From Bacteroidales bacterium (GTDB lineage Bacteria > Bacteroidota > Bacteroidia > Bacteroidales > Paludibacteraceae): DNA of 47,084 nucleotides. The stretch spans positions 1 to 47,084 of the forward strand of contig JAAYQF010000047.1 in assembly GCA_012519425.1 (NCBI GenBank). The letters run 5' to 3'. Position numbers and translations under genes: made by a program. Shown in pieces: positions 10,844 to 27,173 of the stretch. Below the pieces are notes generated by a model. It was given only the letters and a program-made list of their open reading frames with translations. It did no database searches and was not told the origin of the DNA. Every line of letters begins with the position of its first letter. Within the stretch, counting starts at the first letter, position 1.

Positions 10844-11314
10844 ATGGAAGAAGAGAAAAGAAAAATTGTATTGGAGAAAAGAGACGATGGAATAGTTTAT
10901 TCTAAATCTATTAAAGCCGGAAAAAGAATCTATTATTTAGATGTAAAGAGGAGTAGGAACAACGATTTATTTTTGTCAATAACAGAAAGCAAAAAGAAAG
11001 TTTACGGAACCGACCAGGATATACAAGTTAGATACGAGAAACATAAGATATTTCTTTACAAAGAGGACTTTGATAAATTTCTTGAAGGTTTAAATGATGT
11101 CATCGGATTTATAGAAAACACACAAGAAAACGCGGAACCAGGTTCATCCCCGAAAAAAGAAGAGCCAATAGTTGCAGAAGAATCAAAATCTTCAGAAAAG
11201 GCAGAATCACAACCTTCTGCTGAAAAAGAAGAAACGGAATCTACTGACACAGAAGCCGAAAAAGAAGAAGAGGCTGAAGAGAAAAAAGGCTTTTTCGATA
11301 AATTTAAGTTTTAA
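10844..11314 (+). CDS. DUF3276 / Pur-alpha-like nucleic-acid-binding protein
   Basis: The first 85 residues (IVYSKSIKAGKRIYYLDVK, then LFLSITESKKK and KIFLYKEDFDKFLEGL) form one PUR repeat of the bacterial DUF3276 family, which binds single-stranded DNA or RNA and in Borrelia is known as BpuR. The remaining residues 90-150 are a low-complexity acidic tail rich in Glu, Ser and Ala, ending with the basic-aromatic motif GFFDKFKF. The gene stands alone, transcribed away from nusB. A weak promoter can be drawn with TTTG at 10769 and TAACTTTC at 10794. The role in this organism is unknown. Confidence 0.88.
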   Translation: MEEEKRKIVLEKRDDGIVYSKSIKAGKRIYYLDVKRSRNNDLFLSITESKKKVYGTDQDIQVRYEKHKIFLYKEDFDKFLEGLNDVIGFIENTQENAEPGSSPKKEEPIVAEESKSSEKAESQPSAEKEETESTDTEAEKEEEAEEKKGFFDKFKF

Positions 11315-11324
11315 AGCAGGATTA

Positions 11325-12713
11325 TCAATTTTTTGAAACATAAACTTGTCCAAGTTCGTATTTCACAATTTGGACGGTTGAACCTTTTGCTATAAACACA
11401 CCTCCTTCAGAAACTGCGTCGTAGGACATTCCATCTACCATGATTTTACCTGATGGTCGCAAATCTGTTCCGGCTACAGCTTGTTGCCCCACCAAACTTT
11501 TACTTTCCATGGGAACTCCTATATAACCCTGTTCATTTTCAAGATTCGTATTCAATGCGATGTTGTGCAGAACACCTTTTTTGCCGATCCTGTTGCTTAG
11601 GAAAAGCACCAGTACAAACCCTAAGCTGATACCGCCTATGACGGTGAAAAGTGCTTTACCGAGTGCGCCGGTTTCTACAGGTTCAAAATCAAAGTTGACA
11701 TTGTTCACCAGACTTAAAGTCAAACCTGCAACGATGAAGATGATCCCCAAAATTCCGGTTATACCAAATCCCGGAATGGCAAAAATCTCCACAGCTAATA
11801 AAATCAATCCTATGACAAAAACCAGGATTTCCCAGTTGGCAGCCAGACCTTCTATGTACAAAGGTGCGAAATATAACAATGCGGCCGTAACGGCAACAAT
11901 AGAAGGAAAACCTATTCCCGGAGTTTGTAATTCAAAATAAATCCCTCCGATAATTAACATGATCAAAATGCCCTGAAATATGGAGCTCATTAAAAATCCC
12001 TTGATATTATCCATTGCAGAAGGTCGAAAGCTGATGACTTTATAATCGGTAATTTTCAAATACTCACTGATTACTTCATCAATATCTTTGGCAATACCTT
12101 CACAGTAACCATATTGCTCGGCTTCTATGGCAGTAAACGTCAAAGTTTTACCGGAATCCACCAAATTGGGTATAACCGTTCCCTGATCAACCATAGCCTC
12201 TGCAATCTTTGGGTCGCGCTTCCATTGATAGGTCGTATCCCTGCCGTGCACTATGGTATCCTTGCCATGTGCTTCAGCCGTAGCACGCATCGTGGCACGC
12301 ATGTACGACTGGTATTTATCCGGCATAGCCTCACCCATCTGACTGACAACAGTTGCTGCCCCTATAGTAGAACCGGGACGCATAAAAATTTTATCACAAG
12401 CAATAGCGATCAATGCACCGGCAGAAGCTGCATTGTTATCGATAAACACGTATACCGGTAAATCGGCATTCAATATTTTGGTCCGAATGGAATCTGCATA
12501 CAAAACCTCTCCTCCATAAGTATTCATATGGATTAAAATGGCATCAGCCTGTTTTTCTGCAGCCTCTTCAAAACCCTTTTGAGTATAGATCCAGGTGGTA
12601 CTACCAATATCTTTCTTGATGTCGATCTTGTAAAAAGTGGTCGAACCGGTCAGTGTCCCCAAGGCAGACAGAGCAGCAAAGACAAGACATACAGTCAATA
12701 ATTTTGTGCGCAT
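11325..12713 (-). CDS. Long-form NfeD family membrane serine protease (ClpP-class)
   Basis: The 462-residue protein has a signal peptide (about residues 1-22), a ClpP-like serine protease domain, a membrane domain of several helices (about 235-375) and a C-terminal NfeD OB-fold. The catalytic serine is in NNAASAGALIAIACDKI at residue 97, and K133 is the probable general base of the Ser-Lys dyad, as in the archaeal homologue PH1510 that cleaves stomatin. Members usually pair with a stomatin/SPFH protein, but none is next to it here. It converges with the Pur-alpha-like gene, with 10 bp between stops. Confidence 0.9.
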   Translation of the reverse strand: MRTKLLTVCLVFAALSALGTLTGSTTFYKIDIKKDIGSTTWIYTQKGFEEAAEKQADAILIHMNTYGGEVLYADSIRTKILNADLPVYVFIDNNAASAGALIAIACDKIFMRPGSTIGAATVVSQMGEAMPDKYQSYMRATMRATAEAHGKDTIVHGRDTTYQWKRDPKIAEAMVDQGTVIPNLVDSGKTLTFTAIEAEQYGYCEGIAKDIDEVISEYLKITDYKVISFRPSAMDNIKGFLMSSIFQGILIMLIIGGIYFELQTPGIGFPSIVAVTAALLYFAPLYIEGLAANWEILVFVIGLILLAVEIFAIPGFGITGILGIIFIVAGLTLSLVNNVNFDFEPVETGALGKALFTVIGGISLGFVLVLFLSNRIGKKGVLHNIALNTNLENEQGYIGVPMESKSLVGQQAVAGTDLRPSGKIMVDGMSYDAVSEGGVFIAKGSTVQIVKYELGQVYVSKN

Positions 12714-13893: not shown

Positions 13894-13908
13894 ATTTTTA
13901 AAAAAAAA

Positions 13909-14260
13909 TCAGCACTCCTGTAAGCCGGGTTCTGTGCCTTGCAAGCAAGGTGTTTGTCATTTATCTGGGACAGTTGTCACCAACTGCCTCGTGCAATCTA
14001 CCCCCCGACATCGGACGAGCAGCCCTGATTGCGCCGGTGTACATGATCTTGCAACCCATAGGATGTACGGCTACCCATGTTGCCATAAGTACCGGTAAGC
14101 TCTTACCTCACCTTTTCACCCTTACTTCAGCGAGCTGAAGCGGTAATTTTCTGTTACATTACCCTACCCTCGCGGATAGCTTCCCGTTAGGAAGTATGGC
14201 GCTCTGTGTTGCCCGGACTTTCCTCTTCACACAAGGTAAAGCGACAAACCGGAGTACTGA
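13909..14260 (-). ncRNA. rnpB: RNase P RNA (bacterial class A)
   Basis: The catalytic RNA of RNase P, which matures tRNA 5' ends. Read on the minus strand, it has the 5' conserved region GAGGAAAGTCCGGGC, the central GGTGAAAAGGTGAGGTAAGAG region and the 3' region ACAGAACCCGGCTTAC. The ends are set by a 10-bp P1 helix: TCAGTACTCC at the 5' end (14260-14251) pairs with GGAGTGCTGA at the 3' end (13918-13909). A run of eight U follows P1 at 13908-13901 and may act as a terminator. The length is 352 nt. A -7-like element TATCTTCG lies at 14278-14271. Confidence 0.97.
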
Positions 14261-22951: not shown

Positions 22952-23725
22952 CTACTCCACATTTTTTCTGACCCTGTTGATGAAATCAATCATACCTTGA
23001 GCATCGCGGCTATTTATTAATGTCATCAAATCCTTTAACTCTTTACGGATTTTCTCTACCTGCCCCACTGTATATGGGTTGAAAAGGATTTCCGTGAGCA
23101 GATAATCATCTTCCGAGAATAATCCCTTGGCAATATCCATATGTTTTTTGAAGGTAGTTCCGGGCGCATCCTGCTTTTTCATGCAAGCAGCAAATACCAA
23201 TGTAGATGAAAATGGGATGGACAGTGAATATGCGATGGTTTCATCATGTCCTTCGAAGGTGTATTGGTGTAAATTGAGCTTTAAAGTACCGTAGAAATCC
23301 TTGAAAAACGCCTTCCCTAAATGATCCGATTCACTGATGATAATGGCATGGTGCTCGCTCAAATTTCTCAAGTTTGCGAAAGTAGGTCCAAACATTGGGT
23401 GGGTAGATACAAAACGGCGACCCGTGCTTTTGTAAAATTCATAAAAACCTGTTTTCACTGATGCAATATCGCTTATAATGCAATTTTCAGGAAGATAAGG
23501 CAATACATCTTTGAAAGTTTGGATGGTATATTTTAAAGTGACACAGTTTATAAGCAGTTCAGGAGCAAACGTTCTAATTTCTTCATAATCTGTCAACCTT
23601 TGAGTATTAAACACATACCTAAGGCGCTCCTTATTAGAGTCAAAGACTGCCACCTCATGCTGAAAACACAAAGCATCGGCAAGCCAGGTGCCCATCTTAC
23701 CCACACCGAGTATGCAAATTTTCAT
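22952..23725 (-). CDS. tyrA: Prephenate dehydrogenase
   Basis: TyrA oxidatively decarboxylates prephenate to 4-hydroxyphenylpyruvate for tyrosine synthesis. The 257-residue protein has an N-terminal Rossmann motif ILGVGKMGTWLADAL, the catalytic region with STHPMFGPTFANL (His of the active site) and a helical dimerisation domain. No ACT or chorismate mutase domain is attached; the mutase is on the upstream DAHP synthase. Its ATG shares one base with the stop of that gene (TAATG), so translation is coupled. It is the last gene of the attenuated aromatic operon. Confidence 0.92.
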   Translation of the reverse strand: MKICILGVGKMGTWLADALCFQHEVAVFDSNKERLRYVFNTQRLTDYEEIRTFAPELLINCVTLKYTIQTFKDVLPYLPENCIISDIASVKTGFYEFYKSTGRRFVSTHPMFGPTFANLRNLSEHHAIIISESDHLGKAFFKDFYGTLKLNLHQYTFEGHDETIAYSLSIPFSSTLVFAACMKKQDAPGTTFKKHMDIAKGLFSEDDYLLTEILFNPYTVGQVEKIRKELKDLMTLINSRDAQGMIDFINRVRKNVE

Positions 23726-24828
23726 TATTTCTCCTCCTTGTCTTTAATTTTTTTATTCATAATGGCACTTTGGCGATTGATAGATTCTTCATGTATCGCC
23801 TCGAAAATTTTAATAACGAAATCAGCGTCCAAGCCTCTATTTAGCGCTCTCTCCCTACGATCTTTCATTATTTCATCATAGCGGCGAGCCTGCAAAATTG
23901 TAATATTGTTTTCAAACTTATACACTCCAATGGCCTCGGAAATTTTCATACGTTCTTTGAGAGTGTCCAATAAATCATTATCCAGCTTATCTATTTCTTT
24001 TCTAAGTTCATCCAAAGTTGCACGCGGCGTATCTCCAATTTTCGGACGACGCAATATCAATCCATCAATGACCTTTTTCAGCTCCTCGGGAGTTATTTGC
24101 TGTTGCGCATCGCTCCATGCTTCATCTGGATTACAATGAGCTTCTATGATCAATCCGTCAAAATTCAAGTCCATCGCCTCCTGACTAATTGTAGCAATTA
24201 GTGAACGATTACCCCCTATATGGCTCGGATCAGTTATCATGGGAAGCTCGGGGAAACGGCGTCGCAACTCAATTGGAATCTGCCATTGCGGATGATTGCG
24301 AAATTCTGTTTTGTCGTAAGTACTAAAGCCTCTGTGAATGGCGGCAATTTGTGTAATACCGGCATTGTTAATTCTCTCAATGGCACCTATCCACAATTCT
24401 AAGTCAGGGTTTATAGGATTTTTCACAAACACCGGAATATTCACGCCCTTAAGTGCATTTGCAACTTCCTGAACGGCAAAAGGATTGGCAGAAGTACGAG
24501 CACCGATCCACATCATATCCACTCCGTGTTTGATAGCCTCATATACATGATAAGCACTGGCAACCTCCACTCCTACATACATTCCGGTTTCTTCCTTAAC
24601 TTTTTTAAGCCAAGGGAAACCTACTGAACCAACACCTTCAAAATCACCTGGATGAGTTCGAGGTTTCCATACCCCTGCTCTAAACAATTTAATACCCATT
24701 TTCGACAAGAGACGTGCTGTTGACAAAGTCTGCTCTTCAGTCTCGATACTACATGGACCGGCTATTATGATGGGTCGCTTCAAATCAAGACCGGGTAAAT
24801 TAATCGGATCAATTTTCAAATGTGACAT
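23725..24828 (-). CDS. Bifunctional DAHP synthase / chorismate mutase
   Basis: The N-terminal 260 residues are a DAHP synthase of the KDO8P synthase-like type (GPCSIETEEQTL, FRAGVWKPRTHPGDFEG, PVFVKNPINPDLELW, MITDPSHIGG), which condenses PEP and erythrose 4-phosphate. Residues 272-360 are an AroQ-type chorismate mutase (LDELRKEIDKLDNDLLDTL, KISEAIGVYK). The fusion joins the first step of the pathway to the branch toward Phe and Tyr. Such C-terminal mutase fusions are common in Bacteroidota. It lies 3 bp from the aminotransferase gene and overlaps tyrA. Confidence 0.93.
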   Translation of the reverse strand: MSHLKIDPINLPGLDLKRPIIIAGPCSIETEEQTLSTARLLSKMGIKLFRAGVWKPRTHPGDFEGVGSVGFPWLKKVKEETGMYVGVEVASAYHVYEAIKHGVDMMWIGARTSANPFAVQEVANALKGVNIPVFVKNPINPDLELWIGAIERINNAGITQIAAIHRGFSTYDKTEFRNHPQWQIPIELRRRFPELPMITDPSHIGGNRSLIATISQEAMDLNFDGLIIEAHCNPDEAWSDAQQQITPEELKKVIDGLILRRPKIGDTPRATLDELRKEIDKLDNDLLDTLKERMKISEAIGVYKFENNITILQARRYDEIMKDRRERALNRGLDADFVIKIFEAIHEESINRQSAIMNKKIKDKEEK

Positions 24829-24831
24829 ATC

Positions 24832-26007
24832 TTAATTACTTATTGTTTTATTAACTATTCTATTAACTCTATTCAGTGATTCCGCAAGTATTTTTTTAGT
24901 GCTGCACAAAGATACACGTATATATTGTTCTCCACTATCACCAAAAATAAAACCGGGGGTTATAAACACATTTGCTTTTTCTAGAAGCAAATCACTTAGT
25001 TCTTGTCCATCCGAATACTCAGATGGTATGCGTCCCCAAACAAACAAACCTACCTGTTTTTTGTTATAGCTACACCCTAATGCATCCATAATTTCAAACA
25101 CCAATTTTCTTCGTTCTGCATATTCTGCATTTAACTCCTTATACCAGTCGGCACCGGCATCAAGCGCTTTAACGGCTGCTTCTTGCAGAGGTCGATACAT
25201 ACCGGAATCCATATTGCTTTTAACCCTAAGAATATAACTTATAAACTTGCTGTTTGATGCAGCCATGCCTATACGCCATCCGGCCATATTATGCGATTTA
25301 CTCAACGAGTTCAACTCAATGGCAATATCCTTAGCTCTTTCGACAGATAAAAGACTGCTTGGTTCAGGATTTAGTACAAAGCTATAGGGGTTGTCGTTGC
25401 ATATTACAATATTGTGTTTCTTACCGAAAGCAATGATTTGCTTCATAACATCCATATCAGCCGCTGCACCGGTCGGCATATGAGGATAGTTTATCCACAT
25501 AAGCTTCACCTTCGAAAGGTCCTCTTTTTCAATAGCTGACAAGTCGGGCTGCCATCCATTTGATTCATTGAGCGTGTAAGTTCTGGCCTTTGCTCCAACC
25601 AGGTTAGTTACTGCCTTATAAGTAGGATAACCCGGATTGGGAATCAACACTTCATCCCCCGGATTTAAAAAAGCCATGGAAATATGCATGATACCTTCCT
25701 TCGAACCCATCAGTGTAATTATCTCGGAAGCAGGATCCAATTCAACACCATAGCTGCGCTGATACCAAGAGGCAAAAGCCTGACGCAACGCAGGTATCCC
25801 CAAATAACTCTGATAACCATGCACATCTTCTTTAGCGGACACACGGCTAAGGGTTTCAATCACCTCGGGTGCAGGCATTCTGTCGGGACTTCCTATACCT
25901 AAGTTAATTACATCCTTCCCTTCCAAACGCATCTGCTCTATCTGCTTTAATTTTACGGAAAAGTAATACTCTTGTACACTATTTACTCTGTCTGCCGGCT
26001 TGATCAT
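24832..26007 (-). CDS. PLP-dependent aromatic/aspartate-type aminotransferase (class I)
   Basis: The 391-residue fold-type I aminotransferase has INLGIGSPDRMPAPEVIE near the N-terminus, NPGYPTYKAV, the Asn-Pro-Tyr loop ICNDNPYSFV and the PLP lysine in LNSLSKSHNMAGWRIG. Its place between pheA and DAHP synthase-chorismate mutase indicates transamination of phenylpyruvate and 4-hydroxyphenylpyruvate to Phe and Tyr, or of prephenate. The sequence alone does not separate it from LL-diaminopimelate or alanine aminotransferases. It starts 21 bp after pheA. Confidence 0.88.
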   Translation of the reverse strand: MIKPADRVNSVQEYYFSVKLKQIEQMRLEGKDVINLGIGSPDRMPAPEVIETLSRVSAKEDVHGYQSYLGIPALRQAFASWYQRSYGVELDPASEIITLMGSKEGIMHISMAFLNPGDEVLIPNPGYPTYKAVTNLVGAKARTYTLNESNGWQPDLSAIEKEDLSKVKLMWINYPHMPTGAAADMDVMKQIIAFGKKHNIVICNDNPYSFVLNPEPSSLLSVERAKDIAIELNSLSKSHNMAGWRIGMAASNSKFISYILRVKSNMDSGMYRPLQEAAVKALDAGADWYKELNAEYAERRKLVFEIMDALGCSYNKKQVGLFVWGRIPSEYSDGQELSDLLLEKANVFITPGFIFGDSGEQYIRVSLCSTKKILAESLNRVNRIVNKTISN

Positions 26008-26028: not shown

Positions 26029-26934
26029 TTAAATTTCTGATTGAACTTTTGCTATCGGAGTTCCTCCATTTGTAACGTAAACGGTGTCGGCAGCTTCATA
26101 TTCACCCAGCTCCAACAGATTTCCCGTAAGTGGACGAATAGCATCCAAAGATTGGTGATAGCGTTGATAATTTTTAAATATTACATCTATATAAAACAGG
26201 TATTCCCACTCCCGACCAATTATAGGAAGCGACTGTATTTTAGTCAGATTGATATTATAAAAAGTAAGAATGGTCAAAACTTTGCTTAGACTGCCTTCCT
26301 CGTGCGGAAGTGAGAACATCAGTGAAGATTTGTTTAAGCGAGCTTCCGACAGTAATCTGTCGGCTTCTTCCTTATTTCTCTTTCCTATGACCAAAAAACG
26401 AGTGAAATTATGCGTGTTGGTTTCTATATCCTTTGCCAGCACTTCCAAACCATAGATTTTAGCTGCATGCGAGGAGGCTATTGCCGCTATCCCTTTTGTC
26501 TTATTGTCTGCTATCAGTTTCGCACTTAATGCCGTATCTTCAGATTCTATAAGTTTAATATGAGGATAAGTTCTTAAAAAATCCTCGCACTGTGCCAAAG
26601 CCATAGGATGAGAATGTACTTCTTGAATATCCTCTATTTGCTGTCCGGGAAGTGCCATAAGCTGGTGTCTGATCCTGAGCCTTTGCTCACCCAACACCGA
26701 AAGACCCGAATCTTTTAACAAGGTGTAGTTGGCAAGAATACTACCCACCAAAGTGTTTTCTATGGCTACCATTCCAAACATATCGGGGTTATCAGCTACT
26801 TTTTTAAACAGATCAAAGAAGGTAATGCAAGGTTCCAATTCTACCTCTTTATCACGGAAATACGTACGCGTTGCAATATCGTGGTTGGAACCGGGCCAAC
26901 CCTGGATGGCTACTTTTACATTTTGCTGATTCAT
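26029..26934 (-). CDS. pheA: Prephenate dehydratase with ACT domain
   Basis: This enzyme converts prephenate to phenylpyruvate. The dehydratase domain covers residues 1-185, with IQGWPGSNHDIATRTYF and the catalytic TRF motif at 178-180. An ACT domain follows (about 203-285). The allosteric Phe-binding motifs are altered: GALxxxL reads GSLSKVL and ESRP reads QSLP (234-237), so Phe feedback may be weak or different, although this may be a clade trait. It is the first gene of the operon and sits directly downstream of a leader with attenuator structure. The start is the ATG at 26934. Confidence 0.93.
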   Translation of the reverse strand: MNQQNVKVAIQGWPGSNHDIATRTYFRDKEVELEPCITFFDLFKKVADNPDMFGMVAIENTLVGSILANYTLLKDSGLSVLGEQRLRIRHQLMALPGQQIEDIQEVHSHPMALAQCEDFLRTYPHIKLIESEDTALSAKLIADNKTKGIAAIASSHAAKIYGLEVLAKDIETNTHNFTRFLVIGKRNKEEADRLLSEARLNKSSLMFSLPHEEGSLSKVLTILTFYNINLTKIQSLPIIGREWEYLFYIDVIFKNYQRYHQSLDAIRPLTGNLLELGEYEAADTVYVTNGGTPIAKVQSEI

Positions 26935-26961
26935 ATTTTACTTATTTTGGTTTATAAAATG

Positions 26962-27000
26962 AAAAAATAAAAAATCCCGCCTCTTAATCAGGGGCGGGAT
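26962..27000 (-). terminator. Attenuator terminator of the pheA operon
   Basis: On the minus strand ATCCCGCC (27000-26993) pairs perfectly with GGCGGGAT (26981-26974) across an 11-nt loop, and flanking A and U runs can lengthen the stem. A U-rich tail follows (26973-26962). It lies between the promoter at 27144-27173 and pheA, with no room for a promoter after it, so it acts as an attenuator and not only as the recN terminator. Confidence 0.85.
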
Positions 27001-27026
27001 TTTCTCCATTTTGAATATATTAATAA

Positions 27027-27122
27027 TTACTTCAATATAGGTACAAATATAACCCTACCCCTTTTGGCTGAAAAACCAAAAAAGAAATAAAAGAAGTAAT
27101 TAAAATAAGAATGACTTATCAT
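27027..27122 (-). CDS. Phe/Tyr-rich leader peptide of the aromatic operon (31 residues)
   Basis: The short frame ATG 27122 to TAA 27027 encodes 31 residues with the core SYFNYFFYFFFGF: seven Phe and three Tyr within 12 residues (6-17). This is the hallmark of a ribosome-sensed attenuation peptide, like E. coli PheL. Codons 13-16 overlap RNA segment 1 (27084-27076), which pairs with segment 2 (27067-27058). Stalling on Phe or Tyr codons would free segment 2 to pair with the 5' arm of the terminator. It lies about 15 nt downstream of the predicted transcription start. Confidence 0.85.
   Translation of the reverse strand: MISHSYFNYFFYFFFGFSAKRGRVIFVPILK
27053..27084 (-). promoter_or_regulatory. 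Pause hairpin and antiterminator segment of the pheA leader
   Basis: Segment 1, CTTTTTTGG (27084-27076), pairs with CCAAAAGGG of segment 2 (27067-27059), including two U-G pairs. Segment 2 continues as GGGGTAGGG (27061-27053), which can instead pair with CCCGCCCC, the 5' arm of the terminator (26998-26991). The GGGG at 27061-27058 is shared, so the two pairings exclude each other. Confidence 0.75.
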
Positions 27123-27143
27123 TTTGTTGTTGTTTATTGAGCG

Positions 27144-27173
27144 CAAAGGTAATTATAATTTTTACACGTGCAA
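27144..27173 (-). promoter_or_regulatory. Promoter of the pheA operon
   Basis: On the minus strand TTG (27173-27171), a 19-bp spacer and TACCTTTG (27151-27144) match the Bacteroidota -33/-7 promoter very well. The predicted start near 27138 gives a leader of about 200 nt that holds the leader peptide and attenuator. Confidence 0.8.

Follow-up and report, generated by a model that had tools for sequence, protein, structure and literature searches.

How is a four-gene operon that feeds both the phenylalanine and the tyrosine branch controlled in a member of the Bacteroidales, and can one leader peptide report on both amino acids? The question is raised by the region upstream of pheA in the 47,084-nucleotide stretch of DNA analysed here (contig JAAYQF010000047.1, positions 1 to 47,084; hereafter the window), where a sequence-only reading had proposed a complete Phe/Tyr attenuator. 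Judging from the sequence and its comparison with relatives, the region very probably holds a classical (Yanofsky) ribosome-mediated transcription attenuator, which would read Phe-tRNA and probably Tyr-tRNA.

The operon, its promoter and the leader frame

The operon lies on the minus strand. The prephenate dehydratase gene pheA (26029–26934; Pfam PF00800, E = 4.5e-56) is followed by genes for a class I/II aminotransferase (24832–26007; PF00155), a DAHP synthase fused to chorismate mutase (23725–24828; PF00793 and PF01817) and the prephenate dehydrogenase TyrA (22952–23725; PF02153, E = 8.3e-10); Pfam agrees with the earlier operon assignment for all four genes. An aminotransferase homologue is also found downstream of pheA, on the same strand and within the locus stretch, in 73 of the best 80 of 580 named loci. 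The gene upstream of the leader encodes a RecF/RecN/SMC-type ATPase according to Pfam and is presumably recN.

The source is a draft genome of 2.4 Mb in 142 contigs, and the PheA of its nearest relative (G005) is 96% identical. The window PheA (26029–27122 region) shows 71% identity to the proteins of Geofilum and Natronoflexus, above the 53–62% found with genomes called the same genus other than G005. The window leader also resembles the leaders of Geofilum and Natronoflexus more than those of the genomes called the same genus. Transfer of the operon and an uncertain genus assignment are alternative explanations for this pair of likenesses.

The elements are arranged on the minus strand between 27173 and 26967 in the order TTG, 19 bp, TACCTTTG, an A-rich start region, the leader frame, the terminator and a U tract, followed by pheA. 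The Bacteroidota-type promoter, read directly at 27144–27173, consists of TTG (27173–27171), a spacer of 19 bp and TACCTTTG (27151–27144), exactly where it had been placed before; we take the TTG/TACCTTTG-type element to be the Bacteroidota sigma-factor motif. As for where transcripts start, judged by motif only, TAnnTTTG occurs within 60 nt 5′ of the leader start in 128 of the 148 leaders with enough sequence, most commonly beginning 26–38 nt ahead of it, and in 3 of the 148 in a control window 120–180 nt upstream of the leader start.

The predicted leader peptide gene (27027–27122, minus strand) has the 31 codons described earlier and a TAA stop, and it encodes MISHSYFNYFFYFFFGFSAKRGRVIFVPILK with the core SYFNYFFYFFFGF. 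Its best 12-residue window contains 10 Phe/Tyr. Dinucleotide shuffles of the 392-base gap gave at most 6 Phe/Tyr per 12 residues, and since none of 1000 shuffles reached the density of the leader, this density is not due to chance. No tetramer resembling a Shine–Dalgarno (SD) sequence occurs in the 20 bases before the window leader; such a tetramer precedes 6 of 151 leaders, and the 20 nt ahead of the start are 52% A.

On both strands of the window, one other short frame has at least 7 Phe/Tyr per 12 residues, namely 44 codons from 11341 on the minus strand. It was rejected as a leader because it is antisense to the Lys/Glu-rich end of the ORF at 10844–11314; it also overlaps the end of the ORF at 11325–12713. 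The window additionally carries a bacterial RNase P RNA of class A (13905–14260, minus strand; Rfam RF00010, 254 bits).

Alternative stems and the proposed switch

The leader RNA folds with −47.9 kcal/mol (z = −5.1), and none of 200 shuffles folded as well. Its MFE structure contains the inner 1:2 hairpin (27059–27084), in which arm 1 (27084–27074) carries the Phe codons, as the sequence-only reading had it, and pairs with arm 2 (27069–27059). This hairpin is enclosed by a 10-bp outer helix (27024–27102) formed by UAAUUACUUC (27102–27093) and GAAGUAAUUA (27033–27024), which takes in the Asn8–Tyr9–Phe10 codons and the stop codon and was absent from the earlier description. An outer helix, ACATAC...GTATG, is also seen in folds of relatives, e.g., L031 and L154; its 3′ arm shifts between lineages in the alignment. 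Strand 2 (27051–27061, GGGGUAGGGUU), the 5′ part of the antiterminator, can pair with strand 3 (26991–27001, AAUCCCGCCCC), and the latter is shared with the 3:4 intrinsic terminator (26967–27000), whose hairpin at 27000–26974 has a 10-bp stem and is followed by the U tract. The terminator and the strand common to the two pairings were thus found as proposed. Antiterminator and terminator are mutually exclusive, with one strand used by both and covariation in both.

The 2:3 duplex of the window has an energy of −16.6 kcal/mol, equalled by 4 of 100 shuffles. On its own, this pairing is moderately better than shuffles; the weight comes from the relatives. Across 145 distinct leaders, the duplex averages −14.6 kcal/mol, compared with −7.1 for shuffled regions and −10.0 for pairing with a foreign strand 3, a mean advantage of 7.5 and 4.6 kcal/mol, respectively. 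It beats all 100 shuffles in 97 of the 145 leaders, and in 132 at most five shuffles do as well. The strand 3 of another leader pairs as well as the own strand in 14% of cases on average over the 145 leaders, which counts against the attenuator. Strands 2 and 3 change together, as in GAGCAGGA with TCCTGCTC (L031), AAGCGGGA with TCCCGCTT (L154), GACAGGAT with ATCCTGTC (L164) and GCCGGG with CCCGGC (L194).

Covariation was counted in 48 aligned leaders out of 142 listed leader regions, and the earlier claim of a 2:3 pairing is borne out by it. For 2:3, 52 cells with a double change were found versus 24.1 in shuffles, and the score was 0.283 versus 0.182 (for both, 0 of 500 shuffles were as high); 78.4% of cells can pair, falling to 33–50% after sliding of the partner. 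For the 10-bp 3:4 stem, the corresponding values were 86 versus 29.6 cells and 0.521 versus 0.241 (again 0 of 500 for both), with pairing in 90.6% of cells and in 38–47% of cells in the slid versions. Counted as pairs rather than cells, double changes did not go beyond shuffles, either for 2:3 (7 of 9 pairs; 57 of 500 shuffles as high) or for 3:4 (8 of 10; 94 of 500), nor did the number of further pair types in 2:3 (163 of 500). Covariation scores can be inflated by kinship, yet the slid controls retain this kinship and score far lower.

A course of events in line with this anatomy can be proposed. RNA polymerase would start about 15–20 nt before the leader start codon, judging from the promoter motif, and the ribosome would trail it across the Phe/Tyr codons. 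If charged Phe-tRNA or Tyr-tRNA were short, the ribosome would stall between about Tyr9 and Phe15, masking arm 1 together with the 5′ strand of the outer helix, so that strand 2 would stay free. Free strand 2 would then pair with newly made strand 3, arm 4 would have no partner, and pheA, the aminotransferase gene, the DAHP synthase/chorismate mutase gene and tyrA would be transcribed. With both amino acids plentiful, the ribosome would reach the stop codon, the 1:2 domain would hold strand 2 and the 3:4 hairpin would terminate transcription. We infer the stalling, the termination in vivo and the response to Tyr besides Phe.

Model folds show how the codons are placed for such a switch. With RNA extending through strand 3, the MFE structure has 2:3 when the ribosome edge is set at Tyr9, Phe13 or Phe15, and 1:2 when there is no stall, so the placement of the leader codons would let a stalled ribosome free strand 2; the edge for Phe17 already removes part of this strand. 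Once arm 4 is present, 3:4 is in the MFE structure in every model case, stalled ribosome included, and the switch therefore has to be kinetic, decided during RNA synthesis. In about half of the relatives (69 of 145 leaders), strand 2 starts right at the end of the stop codon, between 3 nt upstream and 4 nt downstream of it, so that a ribosome at this codon would cover it. In another 68 it starts 4–30 nt before the end of the stop codon, and in 8 elsewhere, 6 of them further before the stop (the window included) and 2 well after. In the window, on this anatomical reading, the 1:2 domain would have to sequester strand 2.

Spread of the leader and match of its codons to operon content

The pheA loci were drawn from four sources: 100 relatives, of which 70 genomes had a match; 139 genomes sampled from the class, of which 37 had a match and the best 30 of these 37 were used; the best 80 of 580 named loci, with the class taken from their titles; and 30 best-scoring loci from other classes of the phylum, with no random draw. 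All counts cover genomes with a pheA match. Three loci (L048, L064 and L182) were left out because they had no usable upstream sequence or repeated the window. A leader was scored as a frame of 8–60 codons in which a stretch of 12 residues holds 6 or more Phe/Tyr. By this criterion it is present at 159 of the 177 pheA loci taken to belong to the same class (Bacteroidia) and at none of the 30 best-scoring loci from other classes. Among the 18 misses within the class, 4 have at most 209 bases upstream and 1 starts inside the gene with masked bases; the remaining 13 of the 177 have adequate, unmasked upstream sequence. The leader frame and the alternative 2:3 and 3:4 stems, which the sequence-only reading suggested looking for in relatives, are thus both found there.

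A scan found a terminator at 151 of the 159 leaders; some loci are duplicated between the 100-relative and named-locus sets, so 145 of these 151 leaders are distinct. Individual folds of the other 8 revealed a longer or bulged hairpin before the T run, interrupted in L056 and imperfect in L168. In shuffled upstream stretches of 60 relatives, at least 6 Phe/Tyr were reached in 17 of 300 and at least 8 in 1 of 300, so individual leaders scoring 6 or 7 could be due to chance; among the 151, 12 lie in this range and 139 have scores of 8 to 11. Named carriers include Phocaeicola vulgatus ATCC 8482 (L154) and loci titled Parabacteroides, Prevotella, Hoylesella, Dysgonomonas, Geofilum and Natronoflexus.

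Two Phe/Tyr leader frames stand in tandem before one operon in L018, L142, L144, L158, L174 and L374. Both units have a terminator where this was examined, by fold in L018 and L144 and by scan in L374. Such tandem leaders could give sharper or combined responses.

In order to relate leader codons to operon content, downstream genes were scored by homology at 114 pheA loci, with two placeholder stretches excluded and 5 rows that were too short set aside. An operon was called joined if an aminotransferase, DAHP synthase or dehydrogenase homologue lay within 2.6 kb after pheA. Joined operons had a mixed leader (at least 2 Tyr in the core) in 87 cases, a leader with fewer than 2 Tyr there in 2 cases (L302 and L322) and no leader in 11. 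Lone pheA genes had a Phe-dominated leader (likewise no more than one core Tyr) in 4 cases, MTRFFTHFFFFFTQQ, MITINNSFFFFFFRSDPEKGL, MRRNSFRFFFFFAFFFC... and MYFDFVFGFLFCFPKS, a mixed leader in none and no leader in 5. The difference between lone and joined leader-bearing loci is significant in a two-by-two Fisher test uncorrected for kinship (p = 5e-6), and the four lone-pheA leaders come from four families. Two loci outside the Fisher table do not follow the rule: L118, with a Phe-only leader before pheA–aminotransferase–DAHP synthase, runs counter to it, and L140, where a mixed frame lies 369 bases ahead of a lone pheA, is a misfit.

The other half of split operons was represented by separate DAHP-synthase genes, mostly from genomes with a lone pheA, and 14 of 17 such stretches were scanned. 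Leaders were found in 10 of the 14, 11 leaders in all, e.g., MNNTFGYYAFYYYFFYNN. Of the four stretches without a leader, one is a contig end, two belong to second copies of the synthase gene and one to a distant relative of the synthase. A terminator was detected by scan at 9 of the 11 leaders; L381 and L382 form a hairpin with a poor T run. The mean Tyr share was 0.08 for lone pheA (n = 4), 0.42 for joined operons (n = 89) and 0.56 for the split aminotransferase/dehydrogenase/DAHP-synthase genes (n = 11), and the difference from joined operons had Mann–Whitney p values of 0.001 (lone) and 0.0003 (split), uncorrected for kinship.

Leader codon content thus appears to follow operon content, with the exceptions of L302, L322, L118 and L140 and with kinship uncorrected. 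Split and joined operons form a natural experiment in which leader codons track pathway content, and dual sensing by one peptide is therefore directly testable. The comparison supports dual Phe/Tyr sensing as a predicted property of the leader.

Competing readings, known systems and other attenuators

The most serious competing explanation keeps the attenuator and lets it sense Phe-tRNA alone, the Tyr codons being structural filler, as UAC and UAU fit well into both the U-rich arm 1 and the outer helix. Some Tyr codons do sit in that helix (ACAUAC with GUAUGU in folds), and in Corynebacterium glutamicum the AroR leader is reported to respond to Phe but to be insensitive to Tyr (passages of PMC11802643). 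On such a reading, though, the Tyr share would not be expected to track the genes behind the leader as it does, from lone pheA through joined operons to split genes without pheA; we consider Phe-only sensing unlikely, if by no means negligible. The earlier proposal that the peptide senses both amino acids has comparative support, in that the codons follow operon content; against it stands the tested Phe-Tyr-Phe leader of C. glutamicum, which reportedly ignored Tyr (PMC11802643, in the passages on that leader).

The remaining explanations dispense with a switch by the ribosome. A constitutive terminator with a small functional peptide, the hairpins merely trimming the transcript, would account for leader peptides that are strikingly alike within one genus (MNRFFTYFYFYFYFSR); outside that genus, however, the peptides range from 10 to 40 residues and their Phe/Tyr content is better conserved than their sequence or length, and the covariation of strand 2 with strand 3 is needless for a plain terminator, which makes this reading highly improbable. 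Slightly less probable still is an RNA bound by a protein or metabolite, such as a riboswitch or a TRAP/PyrR-like element, in which the open frame would be incidental. With E values up to 10 allowed, Rfam gives sub-threshold matches on both strands to many families, including PyrR with 30.4 bits against a cut-off of 54, but no family reaches its gathering score in the leader stretch and the aligned leaders have no conserved unpaired core beyond the U-rich frame. U-rich DNA yields Phe codons, and a chance U-rich stretch beside the terminator of the upstream recN-like gene could in principle look like a leader; the 0 of 1000 shuffles, the conservation in 159 of 177 loci and the promoter motif lying between the recN-like gene and the leader leave this explanation with a vanishingly small probability.

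The attenuator reading is close to a known system in Escherichia coli, where the pheL attenuator forms alternative 1:2, 2:3 and 3:4 stems, as in the window leader. The pheL element (Rfam RF01859, Phe_leader) likewise has a Phe-rich leader peptide and the same first gene, whereas the window leader belongs to another phylum, has mixed Phe and Tyr codons, precedes a four-gene operon for both branches and has no SD-like tetramer. Rfam families were rejected as an identity for the leader stretch, where all score below their cut-off, Phe_leader itself reaching 23.7 bits against a gathering cut-off of 55. A survey of predicted attenuators in bacteria was reportedly made by Lopatovskaya et al. in 2010. 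Regulation by pheL is named in passages of PMC11802643, which also describe the AroR leader (Neshat et al. 2014). The latter resembles the window leader in its Phe-Tyr-Phe sequence, its aromatic-pathway operon (DAHP synthase) and ribosome stalling, and differs in phylum, in the fewer Phe/Tyr codons described and in a Phe response without a Tyr response (PMC11802643, same passages).

Within the phylum, Table 7 of PMC1173090 (2005) lists a putative attenuator, from Merino's prediction database, before pheA > hisHb > aroA-aroQ > tyrA of Bacteroides thetaiotaomicron. The operon and the class are the same as for the window, and the element is there a predicted attenuator only; the words 'leader peptide' are absent from the text of PMC1173090. 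Going by that table entry, it is most likely the same element as that of the window. Passages of PMC9723704 (2021) report that pheA and hisG of Flavobacterium psychrophilum are preceded by structured 5′ elements, conserved within Flavobacteriaceae, and their authors see strong clues for leader-peptide attenuation at amino-acid operons. The pheA element there shares with ours a structured 5′ element ahead of pheA and differs in that the main-text passages of PMC9723704 hold no peptide or 2:3 analysis. PMC7366714 mentions B. thetaiotaomicron sORFs in long 5′ UTRs reminiscent of leader peptides, with pheA unmentioned in the main text, and the passages of PMC4833913, PMC8305728 and PMC10272879 contain no amino-acid leaders in this class. 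In searches of open-licence PubMed Central literature, neither a functional test in the phylum nor a description of a Phe/Tyr leader there was found. Within these searches, the earlier statement that no characterised example is known from Bacteroidota holds for functional tests; predictions do exist in passages of PMC1173090 and PMC9723704. What is already known is predictions for the same operon; new are its wide occurrence in the class and the agreement of leader codons with operon content. Together with the covariation of the antiterminator, these are the results that merit following up.

A covariance model of the leaders found a match in 25 of 26 genomes, some of them in the training set; the exception belongs to another class. 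A second match in the own genome (L243, G000:C97:16443-16578; E = 6.7e-6) is a different attenuator, with a Leu/Ile-rich leader, MNSIFIHTLLLNIIILLRKK, and its own terminator directly before a leuA-like gene, taken from its sequence for a putative 2-isopropylmalate synthase gene. The Leu/Ile leader before this gene is kept in three relatives (L244–L246). Upstream of hisG, 6 of 12 loci (L231, L232, L233, L236, L239 and L240) have a frame containing 4 or more His per 12 residues, e.g., MQQFLLHSHHHHNGR and MVRTATHHHHFPNE (P. vulgatus); upstream of the own genome's hisG, no His leader was found at this threshold.

It is an even call whether Bacteroidia possess a modular, codon-programmable attenuator cassette, in which one architecture is kept and its leader codons are adapted to each fusion or splitting of an operon: Phe for lone pheA, Phe and Tyr for joined operons, richer in Tyr for the split half, Leu/Ile for leuA and His for hisG. 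If so, leaders nearly devoid of SD sequences would imply tight transcription–translation coupling across the class, for which no test was found in the searchable literature. If the Phe/Tyr attenuator works as proposed, aromatic amino acid synthesis would be under ribosome-mediated attenuation as one of its basic controls in a major gut and environmental class, where the searchable literature on such attenuation consists of predictions only. The leader offers a handle on transcription–translation coupling in bacteria with almost no SD sequences at their leaders.

A Trp leader is not applicable in the own genome because no chorismate-binding enzyme (PF00425: trpE/pabB/menF type) was found there; none was found in the nearest relative G005 either, and the other 6 genomes of the same search have two or three each. 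Both organisms may have retained the synthesis of Phe and Tyr while being auxotrophic for Trp, provided that the region is not simply missing from the draft assemblies. In Geofilum rhodophaeum, a frame with three consecutive Trp, MQTIIRNNNWWWHTSVLIHGR (L391), lies 792 bases before a chorismate-binding (trpE-type) match.
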